Origin: Tillus elongatus
Lineage: Eukaryota > Arthropoda > Insecta > Coleoptera > Cleridae
Direction of reading: 5' to 3'
DNA length: 64,000 nucleotides
NCBI GenBank assembly: GCA_964006375.1
Contig: OZ023262.1
Span: 200,160,778 to 200,224,777, forward strand
Shown here: piece by piece, positions 16,871 to 51,842 of the stretch
Layout of the letters: the number at the start of each line of letters is the position of its first letter
Position numbering within the stretch: position 1 is the stretch's first letter
Notes under the pieces: generated by a model
Seen by the model: the letters and a program-made list of their open reading frames with translations, nothing else
The model's database searches: none
Told to the model about the DNA's origin: nothing
Made by a program: the position numbers and the translations under genes

Positions 16871-17935
16871 ATGGTAAACACCAGATCGACCGACTACGAC
16901 GAGATGGCTGAAATCAAAGTGTTGATGGTTTTACTCAAGAAGCAACGCGAGGAAGACAAAGAAGACCTCAAGAAGCAACGCGAAGAAGACGAAAAGAGGC
17001 GTCTTGAAGATAAAGAAGAACTCAAGAAGCAACGCGAAGAAAACAAAGAAGACCTCCGAAGTATGTTCCACAATATGAAAGTCGATGTAAAAGAAGAAAT
17101 TGAACAGATCAACGAACAAATAGAAAATGTGGACAAGAAAGTAGAAAATGTGGAAAATACAATAGGAGTGGTAAACAGGAAAGTAGAAAATGTAACAGAG
17201 GATTTGAACAGGCGATGGGAAGAAGTGGAGGGGTTGAAAGAACAAATAAAGATGATGGTGAAAGGCACAGAAGTCAGACATAGAGAACTGACAGAACAGG
17301 TGATGGGCCAGACTGATAGAACTCAAGCAAGAGGAGTTACTGGAATGTCCCCAGTTCAAAATCGTCCGAAAGAAGATATGCCAGTCGTGCAGCAGCCTCA
17401 TGGAACCTTGAAGCCGCCGACTTTTGACGGAGAAACATCGTGGCCCATGTACAGGAGGCAGTTTGAGGCGGCAGCTCTCAGCAATGGGTGGAGCGAACAA
17501 CAGGCAGCAACTGCTCTAATTCTCTCTCTTCGAGGTAAAGCCCTAGAAATCCTCCAGAACATCCCGGAGTCGAAACAGCAAAACTACTTAATAGTGATAC
17601 AGGCCCTAGATTTGAGATATGGTAACAATTACATGAGCCAGGTCTACCAGACACAACTAAAGACAAGGGTCCAGAAGCCAAATGAGACTCTGCAAGAATT
17701 TAGTGCCGAAGTGGAGAAACTTGTGCGACTAGCATATCCCCAAGCCCCAGAAGAATTTGTCAACCAGATCACCGTCCAAACCTTCATCGATGGAGTACTT
17801 GACAATGAAATGCAACAAGCTTTAAGGCTCGGAAGGTTCAAAACACTTACAGACTGTCTCATTTATGGCTTGGAATTTGAATTAGATAATGTTGAAGTGA
17901 CTGGAAGAAGCAGCAAACAGTGTGAAGTGTTATAG
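16871..17935 (+). CDS. gag: Gypsy-type Gag, C-terminally replaced by LTR sequence
   Basis: A 354-codon open frame starting with ATG 60 bp after the LTR. Residues about 15-115 are a very charged coiled coil made of repeated KKQREED/KEDL units and VENVEN heptads. Residues about 185-330 are a retrotransposon Gag capsid domain: LKPPTFDGETSWPMYRRQFE, then ALILSLRGKALEIL, RYG, and the FIDGVLDNEMQQALRLGRF segment. Gag would build the particle that packages the RNA. No CCHC knuckle and no protease follow. At 17883 the frame runs into LTR sequence and ends with 17 LTR-encoded residues (to CEVL). The frame has no internal stop or frameshift, so a protein could be made; function without the nucleocapsid is doubtful. 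Confidence 0.85.
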   Translation: MVNTRSTDYDEMAEIKVLMVLLKKQREEDKEDLKKQREEDEKRRLEDKEELKKQREENKEDLRSMFHNMKVDVKEEIEQINEQIENVDKKVENVENTIGVVNRKVENVTEDLNRRWEEVEGLKEQIKMMVKGTEVRHRELTEQVMGQTDRTQARGVTGMSPVQNRPKEDMPVVQQPHGTLKPPTFDGETSWPMYRRQFEAAALSNGWSEQQAATALILSLRGKALEILQNIPESKQQNYLIVIQALDLRYGNNYMSQVYQTQLKTRVQKPNETLQEFSAEVEKLVRLAYPQAPEEFVNQITVQTFIDGVLDNEMQQALRLGRFKTLTDCLIYGLEFELDNVEVTGRSSKQCEVL

Positions 17936-31706: not shown

Positions 31707-31957
31707 GCACATGCTACCGTCTTTTGCTACAATTGGTTACTAACTTTATTAAGTACGATTTGGATAACCCATTCATCACAATATAGTTTTAGGACCTGCC
31801 GGTTGCTTCAACAAAGTTTATTCATCCCTCTGATGATGCTAACTTTGTTAACGAAACGATCGTCAGGTTTAATAACTGTATTATGATGAATTGGGTTCTC
31901 CAAATTGTACTTATCAGGGCTCATCACAGGTTCTAATCTTCACTTATTACTAATGAT
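31707..31957 (+). repeat. 251-bp hammerhead-bearing repeat, unit 1
   Basis: First of two tandem 251-bp units that appear identical base for base (starts GCACATGCTACCG at 31707 and 31958). The ribozyme lies in the middle. Sequences flanking it (AACCCATTCATCAC near 31766 and GATGAATTGGGTT near 31885) are complementary and could extend helix I. Confidence 0.9.
31827..31868 (+). ncRNA. Hammerhead ribozyme (type I), unit 1
   Basis: All core parts are present in order: CCT (helix I), CTGATGA (31830-31836), T, stem II GCTAAC-TTT-GTTAAC (one C-A mismatch), GAAA (31853-31856), a one-pair helix III with C-GATC-G, then TC with cleavage expected after 31864, followed by AGG (helix I partner of CCT). A very short helix III and one base between CTGANGA and stem II are known for hammerheads in Penelope-like elements. 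Confidence 0.8.
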
Positions 31958-32208
31958 GCACATGCTACCGTCTTTTGCTACAATTGGTTACTAACTTTAT
32001 TAAGTACGATTTGGATAACCCATTCATCACAATATAGTTTTAGGACCTGCCGGTTGCTTCAACAAAGTTTATTCATCCCTCTGATGATGCTAACTTTGTT
32101 AACGAAACGATCGTCAGGTTTAATAACTGTATTATGATGAATTGGGTTCTCCAAATTGTACTTATCAGGGCTCATCACAGGTTCTAATCTTCACTTATTA
32201 CTAATGAT
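31958..32208 (+). repeat. 251-bp hammerhead-bearing repeat, unit 2
   Basis: Direct tandem copy of unit 1. The sequences left of unit 1 (CCCTGCTAAG) and right of unit 2 (ATTTTATGAC) do not continue the repeat, so there are exactly two units. Confidence 0.9.
32078..32119 (+). ncRNA. Hammerhead ribozyme (type I), unit 2
   Basis: Identical to the unit 1 motif, 251 bp downstream: CTGATGA at 32081-32087, GAAA at 32104-32107, cleavage expected after 32115. Cleavage at both sites of one transcript would release a 251-nt RNA. Confidence 0.8.
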
Positions 32209-32367
32209 ATTTTATGACTAGTGCCCATATTTGGGGGAGTGCGCATACTTGGTTAAGGTACCTTACATAATATACTCATAGCCAGTGAAGAAATACAAAT
32301 TTATGAAATAGCACTATACAAATAATTAAAAAATAACAATGAATCATATCCTATATAGATTATAAAA

Positions 32368-32916
32368 GTGTGAACGCAGCAAGTGCGTTATGGAAGTCAA
32401 TTTTCATTAAAATGTTTCTACTAGCAAATATGTCTCCCTAATGCAAGCAGACATCAATTTGGTTACTGGTATAGCCTGGATACTAAAAACAATGTACCAT
32501 ATTTTATCAAAATTGCTTATTGTTTGAAAATGTACAAACATTTTCCGACAATAAACTTAAAATGTTTTCGAGTAAACTCGTTTCCTAGCCAACAACGCTT
32601 AGGTTAATAGCAAGTTGGGTTATTGACATTTGAAGGATTTAATGAAAATTCGCTACCAAAACGCACCTACTGAGTCTCAATTTTTTTTCTTACAAACATG
32701 CATCATATTTCGATAAAAAAAATGTATTAATATAAGGGTGTTCGAAAAAACAATTTTAGGGATCACCAACGAGTTATGGACCACCCTATGATTGACAAAA
32801 TATTTTTATAAGATGGAGCTTAAGACACCCTATAATTAACTAATTAACGTATACAACTTTTTCTCGTATCTTGTATAATAACAATTATATTAAGCTTTAC
32901 CGTAGAAATGTGTCCC

Positions 32917-32985
<69 letters not shown>

Positions 32986-33594
32986 CATGTATAAAAATAA
33001 AAATTAAAATGTCGCGGTCTCCTCTTAACGGATTTTTTCTACTAAAATTGGCTAAAAATAATTATAGACCGTCAAACCCTTAACTTAACTAAGCCTACAG
33101 CCAACGCATCAGCTTAACTAAACCTATAGCCAAAGCATCAGAGAAAGGGTCTACTTGAAATTAATTTTCTGTAAATAGTGTAGTAAAGTGACGGACAATG
33201 ACGGTTGAAGCTTAAACTTAACGGTTTGCAGAACACTCTTCTTGCCACATTTTGTTTACATAGTCCGTATTTGTTTTAGGTTCTTCGCCTAAATGTTGTG
33301 AATTTTGACGTTTCAAATTGCGACTTTGACGTTTTGAGGAAAACTTTACATTTTTCTTTAAAAGCCTACAACGTTTTTGCCTTTTAACTTACAGACCTAG
33401 AGTTTGGTACGCGGTCACTATTTATAATGCAAACACGCATACCAAATTTGGATGTTCTTACTTTGTTATTTCCCGAGATATAAATTTTCCGGGAAAACCT
33501 TGGCCGCTTTTCCTGGCTAGCGAACTTATCCAAGCCTCCTGCAATAGGAGGGTACTCAGAAAATTTGATCAAAATTGGCCTATATATATATATA

Positions 33595-33691
<97 letters not shown>

Positions 33692-33811
33692 TGAAAAAGA
33701 CCGTGGATATGGGGCCTAGTTCGCGCTTGTTTGAAGAACTTTTTCAAAATTCAAAAGTCGGTATCTCCATATTAGTGAATTTTTTTTAAAAGAAAATTCA
33801 CTAAAGTAGAA
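32368..33811 (+). mobile_element. GCAG-family repeat, copy E (two-module form)
   Basis: Starts GTGAACGCAGCAAGTGCGTT. Module 1 ends with (TA)n at 32922-32981 and a GGTCTCCTCTTAACGG block. Module 2 runs from about 33064 to a second (TA)n (33582-33687), GACCGTGGATATGGGGCC and the terminal hairpin TTAGTGAATTTT...AAAATTCACTAA. A short duplication (CTTAACTAA...GCATCAG) occurs at 33076-33136. Confidence 0.8.
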
Positions 33812-34376
33812 ATTATAATTACTATAAACAGGTAACATAATTATAGCAACTTAAATAAGGTAGCGATATTAAAGGATTGGACGTAAAACAAAGCTTAAAA
33901 TATAGTTCATTGAATCCGCATTAATATCAAAATTTTAACATATGTTGTTAAAGTTAGACGTTATAAAGTAAATAGGAGATCCAAGAATGAGACTGGACAT
34001 AGCTTCCCTTGCGAACAATACGATTAGAATAAACATGAATATGTAGAATTAAATCGGGGCGTAAGCATGGAAATCTGAGCCAAGGTATCTGAAGCGAGAA
34101 TCCTACCATGCCGGGTACCGTAATATACCTTTAAGGGTGGAATAGTTCTGTGGCTTAGTATTTTTTTTTAATTAAGTGTAGTAAAATACTTTCTTCAGAT
34201 ACAACTCTTGGGGGATAAACTATATGAATTTTGTGGTTAAGGTATTTCATAAAACGTCAATTTATTTTTTTCAAGGGTGGACATATGGTACCTGTAATAA
34301 GCAATTCACTCAATGTGGGAGTATTCAAGCTTAGACCTAACGTATGCATAAAATAATGCTTGTAGAGGCTTCGCAC
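33812..34376. other. AT-rich, nothing recognised
   Basis: No gene or repeat family was identified. Confidence 0.4.
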
Positions 34377-34454: not shown

Positions 34455-34592
34455 TTACTCACTAAGTGAAAATTTGAACCTGTGATGAGCGCTGATAAGC
34501 ACACTTAGAGAATTTGACGCTAACTTGGTTAGCGAAACTATCGTCAGGTTTTTAAAAATGTGTTGCTGTGATTTGGATTCTGCAAGTGTGCT
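34455..34592 (+). repeat. Hammerhead-bearing insertion in copy F
   Basis: The left part (CCTGTGATGAGCGCTGATAA, then GCACACTT) is complementary to the right flank of the other hammerhead copies. The right part (GTGATTTGGATTCTGCAAGT) is the direct homologue of the segment after the ribozyme in the 31-32 kb units and, on the minus strand, at 46.3 kb. Confidence 0.65.
34513..34549 (+). ncRNA. Hammerhead ribozyme, degraded core
   Basis: Stem II GCTAAC-TTG-GTTAGC is perfect. It is followed by GAAA (34534-34537), C-TATC-G and TC, then AGG. The CTGATGA box is reduced to TTTGA, so this copy should not cleave. Confidence 0.7.
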
Positions 34593-34819
34593 TACTACTG
34601 CCAAAGCATCAGGGAAAGGGTCTATTTAAAATGGCCTTTCTCGAATTATTTTAGTAAAATGAAGGACAATGAGGGTTGAAGCAGAAACTTAAGGATTTGT
34701 AAAACATTCTTCTTGCGACGTTTTCTCTAGATAGCCCGTATTCGTTCAAGGTTCTTTAACCAAATAACTAACTTTAACGTCCCAAATCGCGCGACTTTGG
34801 CGTTTTAAGAGGAAAACCC

Positions 34820-36415: not shown

Positions 36416-36427
36416 ACTAAAAAAAGT

Positions 36428-37670
36428 CTAGACGCAGCAAGAATGTTAGGGTAATGAATTCTCATAAAAATATTTTTAATAACAAATAAATCCTTATGTT
36501 TTTTTTTTTAAGAAAGCAGGCACCAAATTTGATTACCAGTATAACCTTTATAGTAGAAACAATGTACCATATTTAATAAAAATAACTTTATTATTTGTAA
36601 ATGTACAAAAATATGCCAAGAATAAACTTAAAATATTCCCGAATAAACTGGTTTCCTGGCCAACGAACCTTAGGTTAATAGCAAATTAAGCTATTGAAAT
36701 CTGAAGCATTTAATGTACGTTCGATACCATAACGCACTTTCTGCATCCTAAATTGCTTTTCTTACAAACATGCATTATATTTCGAAAAAAAAAATGCAAA
36801 AATGCAATAATATAAGGCGTGTTAGATTAAAAAAAAAAGAAAAAATTTGTATCACCAACGACTTATGGTACCTCGTGATTGTAAAAGCGATTTGAAAAAT
36901 GCAGTTCAAGATACCCTATAATTAATGTATATAACTTTTTCTCGTAACTTTTTCTCGTAAAAACGCGTATAAATGCGTCATGCTGTATATATGAAATCAG
37001 ATAAATACCTAAACTAACTCAGGATATGGGTTCTAAGGGGCCTAGATCGCGCTCATTTAAAAAAATTGTTTTAAAATTTAAAAGTGTCGGTCTCCTCATT
37101 TTTGCAACGGATATTCGCTAAAAATTATAGACCATTAACGGACAAACTCTATAACTAAGACTACTGCCGAAGCACCACGGAAAGGGTATATTTAAAGTGG
37201 ATTTTCTGGAAATAGTTTAGTAATTTAAACTACAATTACGGTTAAAGCTGAAACTTAAGGGTTCGTAAAATACTCTTCCTGTTGCATTTTTTTCTACATA
37301 ATGCCTATTCGTTTCAGGTTCTTTGCGTAAATGTTGCCAATGTTGACCTTTCAAATCACGACTTAGAAGTTTTAAGAGGAAACCCTCTTTTTTTTTAAAT
37401 GCCTATTACTTATTTACTTTTACGTTACAGATCTAAATTCTGGTGCATGACTTACACTTTATGAGGTGGATCCACGCACCAAAGATGGTTGCCATAGTTT
37501 TGTTATTTCCGGAGATATAAAAATGTTACGAAAGAAAATACAACATTTTACAGGAAAAAAACAGGCCAATTTTCCTGGCTAACGAACTTTTCCAAGCCAC
37601 TTGCAAAAGGAAGGTACTCATCAAATTGTATTTATTTTAGCCCATTATTTTTTAAATTAGCGGTGTGATA
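36428..37670 (+). mobile_element. GCAG-family repeat, copy G2 (two-module form)
   Basis: Opposite orientation to copy G, abutting it. Starts TCTAGACGCAGCAAGAATGT. Module 1 ends near 37135 (GGGGCCTAGATCGCGCTCAT, then GGTCTCCTCATT). Module 2 continues to TTAGCGGTGTGATATA at about 37670 and is cut before a (TA)n tract or hairpin. Confidence 0.75.
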
Positions 37671-38244
37671 TATACACACGGTATGATAATGAGAGGATAT
37701 ATAGCAACATATAGGAAATAATATGTAAATATAGCAGTAGTGTAACAGAAATTTGTAATTATCGGTTTTTAGGTGATCCTCTGCAACTTTGTAAACCTTT
37801 TGTTGTTATGCCTTGTCAGTTTGTCTGAACTCGTCCTGAAGGGCCCCTGGACGCAAAAGTGTCCCTGTCTATCCCATATACATCATTAAAAAAAACAAAA
37901 AAAAAAAGAAAAACAAAGAAAGAAACAAAAATAAAAAAAGAAACAAAAACAATCAAAAAAAAGCAACATTCTTTAAAAAAGTAAAAAACTTTAAAAACAA
38001 AGAAAAAAAGAAAAGAAAAAGAAATAAGAGGAAAAAAGAAAAGAAAAAAGAAAGCGAACATAATAATATGTATAAATAAGTTTAAATATTTTATATTTGT
38101 ATATAGGCAACATAATTCTGTCTTCTAGATTATTAATACAACATAATGTGTAGGTATTTGTATATATAAAATATCAAAAGTCTGTGGCTGATGGAATTAC
38201 TGTTGCAAGGTCATAAATACCTCCACCACCACCATACATATACA
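37671..38244. other. A-rich tract and unassigned DNA
   Basis: Between about 37887 and 38055 the plus strand is almost pure A with scattered G and C. It follows GGGCCCCTGGACGCAAAAGT, so it may be the poly-A-like tail of a retroposon. No coding sequence was found. Confidence 0.4.
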
Positions 38245-40541: not shown

Positions 40542-42432
40542 CGCATTAAAAACGAAACAGACCGATTTGCGCCCAGAGATTTTTTTTTTGAGAAACTCTG
40601 AAACACGTTAATTTTAATATTGAGTGGGACATGTTTTGACATAAAGCTCAACTTTGTCACGTCAACCCCTTAAGGGTGGTGATAACAACCCTTATATTTT
40701 AAATAAGGAACATGGGTCGAGTGTTACGTCATTTGAAACCTCTTTCTTTTCTGAATTCACCACACTAACTGTTTGGAAGCTTTATCAACTCGTTTGAAAA
40801 TTATTCACAGTTGAAGATGCAAAAACGCATTTTACTCATTCCGATAAAAAATATGCTGATAGTCAATGTTTTGTTGGTTTGTAAACAAGACATTGACTAT
40901 CAGAAAATTTGTTATCGCAATGAGGGAAATGCGGTTTATTATTTCAGTTTACCGGTCGGTTTGATACTATGATAGAAAGAGTTGAAATAATTACTATTTA
41001 AAAAAAAACAATGACTGTGCCAACCGTACCGCAAATTTGTTTAATGAACGACATCTGAACAGACATGTTAACAGAAAACACAGTTTGGAGTTAGTTGCAA
41101 AGTTTCGACAAAGTGGTTCTGTAGCCAACAAAAAACGGGATCCTGAACGTGAATTTCCGGTTAGAAATGAGATTACTGAGATTGAAGTTTTAGGACAAAT
41201 CGCTGCAGACCCAACTTTGAGCACCAGAGAATTGGCCACTGTTTCAAACATCAAAAGAAGAACTATTCAGAGAATATTGAAGCATCATAAATTTCAACCG
41301 TATAAAATCCAGCTTGTACAACAACTGAATGAAGATGATTTTGATCGGCAGTTGGAATTTTGTGAAGTTATGACTGCACGAATAGCTGATAACAGGAACT
41401 TTCTGTTCAATATCTGTTTTTCAGACGAGTGTTCGTTTTTATTAAACTCTACAGTCAATCGTCATAATTGTCGTTATTGGGCAGATAATAATCCAAGAAA
41501 TTTTCACGAAGTCCACACTCAAACTCCACAGAAATTGAATGTCTGGACTGGCACTTTTTGAGACCGTTTAATCGGACCAATTTTTCTTGATAGCAATTTG
41601 AGTGGCGAAACGTATTTGGAGTTACTAGAAGATATCGTTTACCCTCTACTAATTGACATTGTTGAAAATGATGATCGCTATTAAGAAAATCAAATTATTG
41701 TTTCAACAAGATGGAGGTCCTCCGCATTTTTCACAACGTGTTGGGGAGTTTTTGAACAGAGCGTTTCCAGGACAATGGATTGGGCGTAGAGGTGCAATTG
41801 AGTGCCCCGCTAGATCACCGGATTTAACTCATTTAGACTTCTTTCTATGGGGCCATTTAAAGAGTGGAATTTGCGCAACAGGACCGAAGTCTCTGGAAGA
41901 ATTACGACGACGCATTGTTGAAGAATGCGGTCTAATAACTCCACAAATGCTCCAGAATGTCAGGGCTTGTTTTGAACAAAATCTGTACTTTTGTATGGAA
42001 GCTGGTGGTCAACAATTTGAACACTTACTTAACTGAATAAACATTTTTGAACGTTTGGTTGTGTTTTTTAGTTTTTTTTAACGAAGAATTGACTAATTAG
42101 TGCATTTCTTATCACAATTAATGAAAAACGTTCTTGCAACTCCAACTGTAAATAATTTTTAAACGAGTTGATAAAACTTCCAAAAAAATTTGTGAAAAAA
42201 ATTAGTGTGCTGAATTATAAAAAGAAAGAGCTTTCAAATGATGTAACACTTGAACCATGTTCCCTATTTAAAATATAAGGCTTGTTATCACCACCCTTAA
42301 GGGGTTGATGTGACAATGTTGAGTTTTATGTCAAAACATGTCCCCCTCAATATTAAAATTGACGTGTTTCAGCGTTTCTTTAAAAAAAAGTTCTCTGGAC
42401 GCAAATCGGTCTGTTTCGTTTTCAATGGACCA

Positions 42433-45628: not shown

Positions 45629-46279
45629 TCCGATCGTTGTCGTCAGTTTTTCTAGCGAACGGAATGTCGTACGATATGGCTTTTCATATTGAAATGACAG
45701 AAAAAATATCAGAAACTTTGGAGTGAATAGTTTATAAAAATTATATACTTTTAAGATAAGGTAAGTTGCGATATGAATTATAAAACCTATAAAAGTTCGC
45801 TACCATAACGCACTTGCTGCGTCCCGACTTCTTTTCTTTTGCAACAGTGTGTGAGACTTTCATTGATATTTGAGACAAAATCGAAATTTGAATATCCCCG
45901 ACAAAAATTATTATACTTGCGTTAATGGTGGACATCGCTATAACTTCGTTGGCGAAAGTGATGATATAGTGGGCATTAATTGAAACTAATTATCATTTCC
46001 GAGATTTCACAAGGTATCGTCTTACATCATAAATTGATACATCAATGTTTATTCAGAGATTAATTTACATATTTAATAATGTAAACGTTGTTGGTAAATT
46101 CGTAGTAGGTATGAAACAACCGCCCAATAACACAAAATAATTATTAAATTAAATATTATAAAGAATACTTTCCAATGTTTATAAACTTTCCAAACTATAG
46201 AGAAATATGTAAGACTGTTATTCTCATTAAAATTCAGTTTTTGTACGGTAAAATTTTATATAAAATGCTAAGCGAAGAT
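45629..46279. other. Mostly unassigned; GCAG-family scrap at 45788-45828
   Basis: CTACCATAACGCACTTGCTG followed by CGTCCC is the start of the GCAG family in minus orientation. Nothing else was recognised. Confidence 0.5.
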
Positions 46280-46346
46280 TGGAACATCTGATCAGCACCG
46301 ATAAGTACACTTGGACAACCCAAATCACCACAACTTTTTAAAAAAA

Positions 46347-46386
46347 CCTGATGAACATTTCACTAACCAAGTTAGTGTCATCAGAG
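46347..46386 (-). ncRNA. Hammerhead ribozyme (type I), complete core
   Basis: Minus strand: CT, CTGATGA (46384-46378), C, stem II ACTAAC-TTG-GTTAGT, GAAA (46361-46358), U-GTTC-A, UC with cleavage expected after 46350, then AGG. Compared with the 31-32 kb units, the single helix III pair changes from C-G to U-A and stem II changes in a pairing-preserving way. Confidence 0.8.
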
Positions 46387-46584
46387 AATGGATAATATAA
46401 AACATCTTACAGCTACAACTCTACTAATATTTTTGTGCGGACAGTCGGTCCATAACATATTAGCATATTTTGTTTGGCAGAAAGACCTGAATTATTTTAT
46501 TATCTATCGGACATGCCTCTGTCAACCGACTCACCATAGGCAGTAAGGTCAAGGTCATACAGTTTTTATTATTACTATATTAAG

Positions 46585-46823
<239 letters not shown>

Positions 46824-46924: not shown

Positions 46925-47695
46925 TAATGTTCATTAAATTGAATTTCAATACATCCTTTTATTTGTCAGACGTATCTAAGATTACAATCTCTACAACTTG
47001 TTTCATAAATTATCTACATTTTAGCGATACTATCTTTGTCTTTTGAATTACCTAGCAAGTTTTTTATAGTATTTTTGTCGAAAAAGTGAGTGGAAAATTG
47101 GCTTTTTTTAAAATGTCATCTAGACCTCTCGTAACTCGTGGTTTAAATGGTAAGCGAATAAAGCTTTTTTGGCTTTCTCTCTTCTACAAGTCGACGATTC
47201 CGCTAACATTTTCTTTGTTTTCTGTTTGTTGATAATTCCTGCACTAAGCAAGCAGTATATCAGTTATATTCGGCCACGTTCTTATTATACCTTATTCTTT
47301 GGCATATCTATTTTTACTTAAATGAAAATTAATTACCCTGTTTACTAAAAAAAATCCGACTGGCCATTTTTTGTGCGTATGTATGATGTGAGTCATTCAG
47401 AATGTAACTTAGAGTGATGGTTTCCTTCCTATGGACATTTAATTCTGAAGCGTCATTATTTTTTATAACTAGTACACCTAGAAAGTGTAATTTATTATTA
47501 ACTTCTAATTCGTGGGTAAATTTTATAGAATCAAATTGATTGTTCAATTTGGCAATAAAATCGTCTTTTTTGCAAATGATTGTGGTAAACACTGCGAAGA
47601 TATCATCCACATAACAAAGTCATACTCTAGAAAAATACTCATTTTCACTTTTAAGATCTATTTCAAATCTACCACCACTCTGAGTTAGATTCCGA
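46925..47695 (-). pseudogene. Penelope-like RT C-terminal part and GIY-YIG remnant
   Basis: Minus strand: CYVDDIFAVFTTIICKKDDF holds the Y-V-D-D active-site box. FDSIKFTHELEVNNKLHFLG, SYILNDSHHTYAQKMASRIF and, after stops and frameshifts, NVAEYN follow. Then come NTIKNLLGNSKDKDSIAKM, IIYETSCRDCNLRYV, IKGCIEIQFNEH. The last part is a degraded GIY-YIG nuclease (intact form: C-x-x-C-x-x-x-Y-I-G-Q-T). The order RT-linker-GIY-YIG is diagnostic for Penelope-like elements. Several stops; not functional. Confidence 0.8.
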
Positions 47696-47960: not shown

Positions 47961-47990
47961 CGAGTGGTCTAGATATTATTTAAAAAACTC

Positions 47991-49637
<1,647 letters not shown>

Positions 49638-49912
49638 AAAAGACATTTTCGACAAAAAATACCTGATAGGTAACCCAAAAACAAGGATAGTAACGTTAAA
49701 ATGTCGGGAATTTTTGACATAAGTTAAGATTGTGATCCTAAATACATCGGATAAAGAAAAAGATCTATTGAAATTAGGTTTAATGTACATTTGGCACAAT
49801 TAAGATACGGTAATGTAGATAGATCTTTGGTTGCCCGTTATTTGGGATTATAATCACTATCTATATATAATGTAAATATAAATAATATTTTACTTAAATT
49901 ATACAAGGTGCC
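49638..49912. other. AT-rich spacer, nothing recognised
   Basis: No gene or repeat was identified between GCAG copy K and the next transposon. Confidence 0.4.
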
Positions 49913-50479: not shown

Positions 50480-51842
50480 CAAATTCACAAATGCGAGATA
50501 TGGCTTGTCCTTATGCCCAGGGAAATTTTTGTTCGCGCAGAGCAACACAGCGCTATTTTTAGCTTTATCCTGATAGAAGGCAACCAAACTATAAAACTTT
50601 TAGAGCACTGTACGATAGATTAGGTAAAACATTTCATCTCAAAAACAGAAATGCAGAAAGACCGAGTGTAATTGATGCTGATGTCGAAGACGAAATCATA
50701 GTTCGTATTGTAGAAGACGCAGAAACTAGAACGAGACGTGTTAGTGCAACAACGGGTATGAGCAAATCTTCGGTGTCCAGAATCATACGCAAAGAAAAGC
50801 TGCATCCGTATCATTTTACTCGAGTTCAGCAGCTTTTACCGCAGCACTTACCAAGAAGACTTCAATTTTGCCAGTTAATGAGAGAACGCTATTTAGAGGA
50901 TCCAATGTTCGACAAGAAAATTGTATTTATTGATGAAGCCTTATTCACCAAAAGAGGTATGTTCTATTTGCGGAATAGCCATACCTATGCGATTGAAAAT
51001 CCTCATGCTATTCGCGAACATCATTTTCAACATGAATTTTCAAGGAATATTTGGTGTGGAATTCTTCAAAATTGTATTGTGGGACCATTTGAACTTCCAC
51101 CTAGACTTAACGGAGCAACGTACCTCTTGTTTTTGGGAAAGAATTTACCGATACTTTTCGAAGATGTACCTTTAACTTTAAGGACTGACTCTTGGTTCAT
51201 GCATAATGGTGCCCCAGCACATTACATCCGAGATGTGCAAAATTATTTAGATGAAATTTACCTAAGGGTAGATGCATTCTCACAACAATTAGAACCATAG
51301 ACCGGTTTCGCTCTAATTAGAGCTAGTCGGTACCGTACTGACGAGCTTTAATTAGAGCGAAACCGGTTTACGGTTCTAATTGCTGTGAGAATGCATCTAG
51401 CCTTACATATTTTGTCCCTATATTAGGGTATAAAAGGGCCAGGGCTGACAATTTATTAAATTGTTAGTTGGTTGTATACAGTCTCTATTTTTTAACATTG
51501 TTTGGAGCTGGCGTGACAACATACTACTTGATTCCGCAACTAGGTGGAGACACACTCACCACTCACTTAGTGATGAAATTTACCCTCAAAGGAAGATTGG
51601 CAGAGGTAGTGTGCACCCATGTCCAGCGCGTAGTCCTGACTTAAATCCGCGATATTTTTACTTTTGGAGTTATTTAGAGTTACTGACCTACAAAGATCAA
51701 ATATATAACCGCCAGCAAATATGAGAAAAGATCGTAGAGATCAGAACTCAACAAAATTCATTTTTTAAAGTAAGAGATAATTTTAATAAACGGGTGAGAA
51801 AATGTATTGCTGTAAATGGTGAACATTTTGAGCACTTACTAT
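50480..51842 (+). pseudogene. D,D41D mariner-type transposase, interrupted
   Basis: N-terminal pieces in two frames: YPDRRQPNYKTFRALYDRLG, DEIIVRIVEDAETRTRRVSA and SKSSVSRIIRKEKLHPYHFT (helix-turn-helix and linker). Catalytic part: IVFIDEALFTKRG with the first D, NIWCGILQNCIVGPFELPPR and FMHNGAPAHYIRDVQNYLDE, where the second catalytic D is N. After the insertion: IYPQRKIGRG and CPARSPDLNPRYFYFWSYLE, where the third D is Y, spacing 41. The tail ends KCIAVNGEHFEHLL. With two catalytic residues changed it was dead even without the insertion. Confidence 0.85.
51263..51571 (+). mobile_element. 309-bp insertion with long hairpin and TATA box
   Basis: It splits the transposase cleanly and is flanked by the 13-bp duplication GATGAAATTTACC (51250-51262 and 51572-51584). 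The first 143 bp form a near-perfect hairpin (arms of about 66 bp, e.g. GATGCATTCTCACA and TGTGAGAATGCATC). Then TATAAAAGGGCCAGGGC (51429) looks like a core promoter. There is no poly-A, no recognised tRNA boxes and no coding sequence. Family unknown. Confidence 0.75.

Follow-up and report, generated by a model that had tools for sequence, protein, structure and literature searches.

A tandem hammerhead dimer in Tillus elongatus, best explained as a duplicated stub of a Penelope-like element

Structure of the dimer and extent of its relatives

Two adjacent units on the plus strand of the window (the whole stretch of DNA that was analysed, 64 kb long), at 31707-31957 and 31958-32208, each carry a hammerhead motif. 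They are very probably the product of one solo insertion of a Penelope-like element (PLE) with inverted pLTRs (31750-31950, second copy 32001-32201), which was later duplicated along with ~50 bp of flanking host DNA. Copies of this PLE stub, whose hammerhead is unusual, are very abundant in the genome. The anatomy of PLE inserts is already known from the literature, and no description of the hammerhead-bearing PLE family of this genome was found in open-licence papers.

The dimer is exact, as had been claimed for it: the second unit repeats the first at 251 of 251 positions with zero differences, which amounts to 2.0 copies. In the 1.72-Gb host genome 12,325 places (6102 + 6223) match the family core exactly, and none matches its reversed control; the sequence patterns had 0 matches in a viral contig collection and in a genome contig collection. 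A genome search with the unit found 4724 candidates, of which 40 were scored; these gave 86 match rows. The 40 leading rows besides the dimer cover unit positions ~44-242 at 81-94% identity, and the relatives as a whole align to ~44-244, with position 35 as the earliest start when the dimer's own rows and one row in locus L039 are set aside. This exceptional row (71% identity) spans the unit junction and is heavily gapped, with 21 nt against the unit's 54. Four of the 86 rows extend 1-6 nt beyond the unit end, and the ~50-bp flank is near-absent from the scored relatives. Since the relatives align only to unit ~44-244, the 251 bp is not the length of the element; the unit is best read as an insertion that was duplicated in tandem with ~50 bp of neighbouring host DNA.

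The tandem arrangement would then be a later duplication at the DNA level, with the insertion first and the 251-bp duplication afterwards. The dimer's own ends share no common word above 6 bp that could serve as a target site duplication (TSD), and the 6-bp word sits off the ends. Similarity between the dimer flanks and the unit is not above that of shuffles. Microhomology is absent from the breakpoints of the 251-bp duplication, and we count this against our explanation. Alternatively, the second unit could have been put in by the assembler. The zero differences over 251 bp between the units would fit such an artefact, which we nevertheless consider unlikely given that the contig is chromosome-scale (337.7 Mb), the sole point counted against it.

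The anatomy of the insertion was compared in 39 fetched loci that represent the best-scoring relatives of the unit. Sixteen were classed as FULL (match over 180 bp, small palindrome), 20 as HALF (one arm in a 1.7-2.3-kb stretch) and 3 as complex; L033, L039 and L042 were excluded from the tables of ends, TSDs and promoters. The insertion in the window has the anatomy found in 16/16 tabulated small palindromes. Its left arm (31750-31798, copy 32001-32049, minus strand) is inverted, with a truncated inner end and a short outer end without tail at reference position 99. The right arm (31815-31950, copy 32066-32201, plus strand) contains the hammerhead, runs from reference 0 to 136 and has the long end with a tail of ~35 nt; it begins where the promoter sits just upstream in longer copies. 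In the 16 FULL loci left arms end at reference 96-105 and right arms at 129-140, and the inner starts of the right arms lie between -9 and +8. One arm is longer by ~35 nt, the PLE tail, in 16/16 FULL loci, which were picked by likeness to the unit and thus to its own unequal arms. Arms of unequal length, one short and one long, were also seen in loci found without the unit, namely in 6/6 two-armed RT loci and, among the first 10 core-pattern loci, in the 4 pairs that lie head-to-head.

Candidate copies of a TSD, TTACTAA (score 7), lie on the plus strand at 31737-31743 (also 31988-31994) and 31947-31953 (also 32198-32204), the second overlapping the tail end. With only 7 bp this TSD is weak on its own: 10.8% of mismatched pairs attain a score of 7, and TTACTAA is found at 31 places on the two strands of the window. 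TSD scores of at least 8 (9-13 bp) were obtained for 9/16 FULL loci versus 2.5% of 240 mismatched pairs, and a convincing TSD is absent in 7/16; this, like the short TSD of the unit, speaks against our explanation. Twelve of the 20 HALF loci have a TATAAATA box (at most 1 mismatch) 30-33 nt upstream of the arm start, and six have the initiator TCA[CG]T.

Linkage to a Penelope-like reverse transcriptase

The dimer had originally been tied to a Penelope-like reverse transcriptase (RT) at 46-47 kb, and the genome-wide comparison upholds this link. The minus strand of the window encodes an RT fragment of an older PLE copy (47332-47619), which is 71-81% identical to 149 other genome places; in total 150 places were scored of 17,451 loose candidates, and some have open frames of more than 700 aa. 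The pLTR with hammerhead of this older copy (46266-46393, minus strand) has an ACTAAC/GTTAGT stem II and a T-A helix III, and the distance from the RT fragment downstream to the start of its hammerhead is 937 nt. In 9/10 of the best RT loci, the window's own (L072) included, a hammerhead on the same strand starts downstream of the RT match, at a distance of 787-949 nt; judged by its position, the hammerhead motif thus belongs to the PLE itself. In the tenth, L076, no downstream hammerhead is present in its stretch. At 46583-46820 of the window, in the interval that separates the RT fragment of the old copy from its hammerhead, lies a (TA)n array whose two flanks, TGTTAGACAACCGTGACATCT... and its complement, are inverted relative to each other.

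The 96-aa RT fragment of the window matched no RT model in Pfam and nothing in PDB. Because the fragment alone matches no Pfam RT model, its name rests on its relatives. Seven of 14 longer stretches match the fragment, and RVT_1 was found in L076 (E 2.6e-12), L079 (E 2.8e-10) and L081 (E 1.2e-11). L060 holds a whole two-armed copy, of which the minus arm reads RT and, by eye, GIY-YIG (GIY...YVG). Matches to the GIY-YIG model stayed below the cut-off of 22.6, as L076 scored 21.6 bits (E 2.7e-4) and L079 13.6 bits. The best of them is in the only one of the ten RT loci that lacks a downstream hammerhead, and we count both points against our explanation.

The window contains several other repeats. 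A family of ~1-1.7 kb with long (TA)n arrays, starting near ACGCAGCAAGTGCGTTATG, has copies on the plus strand at 32360-33814, 36420-37679 and 47980-49647 and on the minus strand at 44571-43211 and 39783-38899, with main alignments between copies that are ~68-81% identical. A decayed palindromic relative lies at 34461-34600, without assigned strand, and has lost CTGATGA but retained stem II and GAAA. At 34594 this decayed hammerhead copy adjoins a truncated part of the ACGCAGCAAGTGCGTTATG/(TA)n family; three other copies of that family share upstream sequence different from that at 34594. Lastly, broken Tc3/mariner-like transposase frames are found at 40986-41561 and 50563-51300 (Pfam HTH_Tnp_Tc3_2, below cut-off), and a 354-aa gag-like frame at 16871-17935 (Pfam PNMA, 26.1 bits with a cut-off of 25).

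The hammerhead motif, its conservation and its predicted fold

Each unit had been said to carry a complete hammerhead, and the motif is indeed there, though not quite in the form that was described. The type I motif at 31827-31867 (copy 32078-32118, plus strand) reads CCT-CTGATGA-T-GCTAAC-TTT-GTTAAC-GAAA-CGATCG-TC-AGG; CTGATGA begins at 31830 and 32081, and GAAA, GATC in the short helix III, GTC and CCT/AGG are found in both units, with cleavage predicted after C31864 and C32115. The motif is, however, not canonical, as it has one extra nucleotide (T) between CTGATGA and stem II, and stem II of the dimer hammerhead holds a C.A mismatch. A type I descriptor that permits 0 or 1 extra nucleotides after CTGATGA recovered three motifs in the window (31830, 32081 and, on the minus strand, 46384), whereas 60 dinucleotide-shuffled sequences, 64 kb each, gave none. 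The original prediction was right in seeing here a type I motif with very short helix III within a mobile element that is tied to a Penelope-like RT.

In a check with the Rfam covariance models, which had been suggested for the motif, no family reached its gathering score in a search of the whole window, no hammerhead model appeared at E up to 10 on a 1101-bp slice around the dimer, and none was listed by Rfam for the slice around the 46-kb copy. Hammerhead_1 (RF00163) appeared only on an 81-bp slice, with 17.2 bits (E 0.048) and a cut-off of 34. The window motif resembles this model in CTGATGA, GAAACG..CGTC and the short helix I, and differs from it in its score and in the additional nucleotide that follows A9. 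An unpaired nucleotide at the corresponding place occurs in some plant satellite RNAs. Core insertions in hammerheads can reduce activity or be tolerated, as shown in excerpts of PMC3088659.

Conservation was assessed in a 60-row alignment (A2; 58 distinct sequences). Its source was 78 hits with almost complete coverage of the core; duplicates and the second, identical window unit were dropped and the 46-kb copy was added, and the alignment leans to intact motifs. None of the 13 core nucleotides is altered in the window unit or in 32/60 rows of A2. The extra nucleotide before stem II is present in 59/60 rows (C 36, T 22, A 1, absent 1). Hammerhead pairs exceed shuffles, which are lenient because the A2 sequences are related, in pairing (2/500), both-side cells (1/500) and score (1/500), but on the stricter measures only modestly (11/500 for pairs with both-side changes and 42/500 for pair types). 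The pairs of a plain hairpin do not exceed shuffles on any of five measures (130, 290, 342, 258 and 241 of 500). Core conservation is modest, with a mean column identity of 95% for core and 91% for non-core columns; between the unit and the 46-kb copy 13/13 core columns and 81/126 other columns are alike. In a subfamily with CCCTTGATGA (L036, L037, L060 and L019) the first helix I pair has changed from U-A to C-G on both sides, and core C3 has changed to T.

The unit is an imperfect palindrome, of which positions 44-207 match their own complement at 73% identity, and it is predicted to fold as a rod (-79.5 kcal/mol, z -9.9). In the folded dimer no hammerhead pair exceeds a probability of 5e-8, and in an 81-nt piece the maximum is 0.08; for the unit as well as the 46-kb copy, a plain hairpin is favoured over the hammerhead by ~12-15 kcal/mol. 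Since the predicted folds bury the motif, hammerhead activity seems doubtful. A plain hairpin in place of the hammerhead was considered and rejected: it is more stable, but its covariation is not above shuffles. The palindrome gave no clear RNA-strand signal, with G.U in 10/86 pairs on the plus and 7/84 on the minus strand.

Alternative origins and comparison with known elements

The original prediction took the 251-bp unit for a retrozyme-like element. On this reading, an animal (non-LTR) retrozyme would be transcribed as tandem units, which its hammerheads cleave to 251-nt RNAs; these would form circles and return to the genome as copies made by an enzyme of a PLE or a LINE. The type I motif, a dimer of suitable size, the low GC content and the presence of PLE in the genome all agree with excerpts of a description of such elements, and so does the highly self-paired predicted RNA (PMC7229834). 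This reading was rejected after the genome search had given the extents and orientations of the relatives, and we now regard it as very improbable. Firstly, apart from the gapped L039 row, relatives begin at unit 35 or later, and a 251-nt RNA cut at both sites would hold ~50 nt of flank that is absent from the scored relatives. Secondly, neighbouring copies are mostly head-to-head: among the first 100 listed of 12,325 core matches, this applies to 4/4 neighbours closer than 500 bp, so no direct pair was found there, and to 13/16 closer than 3 kb, the others being 2 direct and 1 tail-to-tail. The 11 close arm pairs in the 39 loci comprise 7 head-to-head, 3 direct and 1 tail-to-tail. The same-strand neighbours (2/16) and the direct arm pairs (3/11; L033 twice, L028 once) speak for a retrozyme, and the 4/11 close pairs that are not head-to-head count against our own explanation. 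Lastly, TSDs border the ~200-bp palindrome and not the tandem, and the core is sequestered in the predicted folds. Two loci break the head-to-head rule: L033 has two same-strand hammerhead arm pairs at 1054-1393, one of them ~86 bp apart, and L028 has one close same-strand pair at 801-1267.

A chance resemblance to a hammerhead in a MITE, or in some other foldback element of the DNA-transposon type, is barely credible: the strong inverted repeat, the greater stability of the plain hairpin (~12-15 kcal/mol) and the miRNA models that score best on the unit would suit it, but those matches are far below cut-off and arise because the unit is palindromic, and it is contradicted by the RT linkage, by the fixed arm asymmetry and promoter, and by the hammerhead pairs that exceed (lenient) shuffles where hairpin pairs do not.

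The duplicated solo PLE insertion that we prefer could have arisen as follows. A PLE with a hammerhead in its pLTR would have left only a ~135-nt stretch, spanning approximately from the presumed RNA 5' end to the start sites of reverse transcription, as two head-to-head cDNA arms. Of two start sites separated by ~35 nt, the inner would have served one arm and the outer the other, and the arms would meet near the presumed RNA 5' end. The product would be the ~200-bp imperfect palindrome at 31750-31950 with the short target duplication TTACTAA, after which the 251-bp block of insertion and ~50 bp host flank would have been duplicated in tandem. The data establish that the insertion belongs to the family, its anatomy, the linkage to the PLE RT and the near-absence of the flank from relatives, whereas the two-armed target-primed mechanism, the position of the RNA 5' end, the sequence of the two events and the DNA-level character of the duplication are what we infer.

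More speculatively, the ~12,000 hammerhead copies of this genome could be fossils left by a PLE that inserted through two-sided target-primed reverse transcription, in which extension of the two target strands from the inner versus the outer start site leaves exactly one tailed arm. Abundant dispersed hammerheads of animals whose origin is unexplained would then largely be such stubs, and the hammerhead with the conserved extra nucleotide between A9 and stem II would be a working, perhaps protein-assisted variant. We hold this to be a tentative idea and rather unlikely, and gave it slightly less weight than before because, in excerpts of PMC11167929, both target strands were extended in vitro with no strand difference in start site. 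The results correct an attractive but wrong circular-RNA retrozyme reading and show that a tandem hammerhead dimer can arise from a PLE stub duplicated with host flank. In addition, the family is large enough to test PLE insertion with respect to which end is tailed, at which point the arms end and whether the hammerhead is maintained by selection.

Among known systems, the closest likeness is to Pen2a_Av of Adineta vaga (PMC3846280) and PAc of Anolis (PMC11167929), compared here by excerpts of the two papers. PLE inserts are described there with inverted pLTRs, of which one bears a 31-bp tail, with a 9-bp TSD and with a promoter that has TATA and TCACT, and their palindromes were explained by self-priming (PMC3846280); the tail was assigned to the stretch between two internal RT start sites, and the hammerhead needed the protein (PMC11167929). 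The present family shares with these elements the RT frames and a candidate GIY-YIG-like frame, a pLTR with TATA box (here with the initiator in a minority), and the head-to-head inverted pLTRs with a tail of ~31-35 nt on one arm and a short TSD; with PAc it shares in addition a hammerhead at the pLTR. It differs in its many solo arms of ~200 bp, its very high copy number and perhaps the extra nucleotide before stem II. The animal non-LTR retrozymes of Acropora, Mytilus and Ambystoma, for which PLEs were named a strong candidate helper when these elements were defined, are alike in the type I hammerhead, the low GC content and the self-paired RNA according to excerpts of PMC7229834, and the axolotl retrozyme also in a short helix III with palindromic tetraloop. 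In contrast to these retrozymes, the period in the window is not an element monomer, the arms are mostly inverted and the family is linked to an RT frame.
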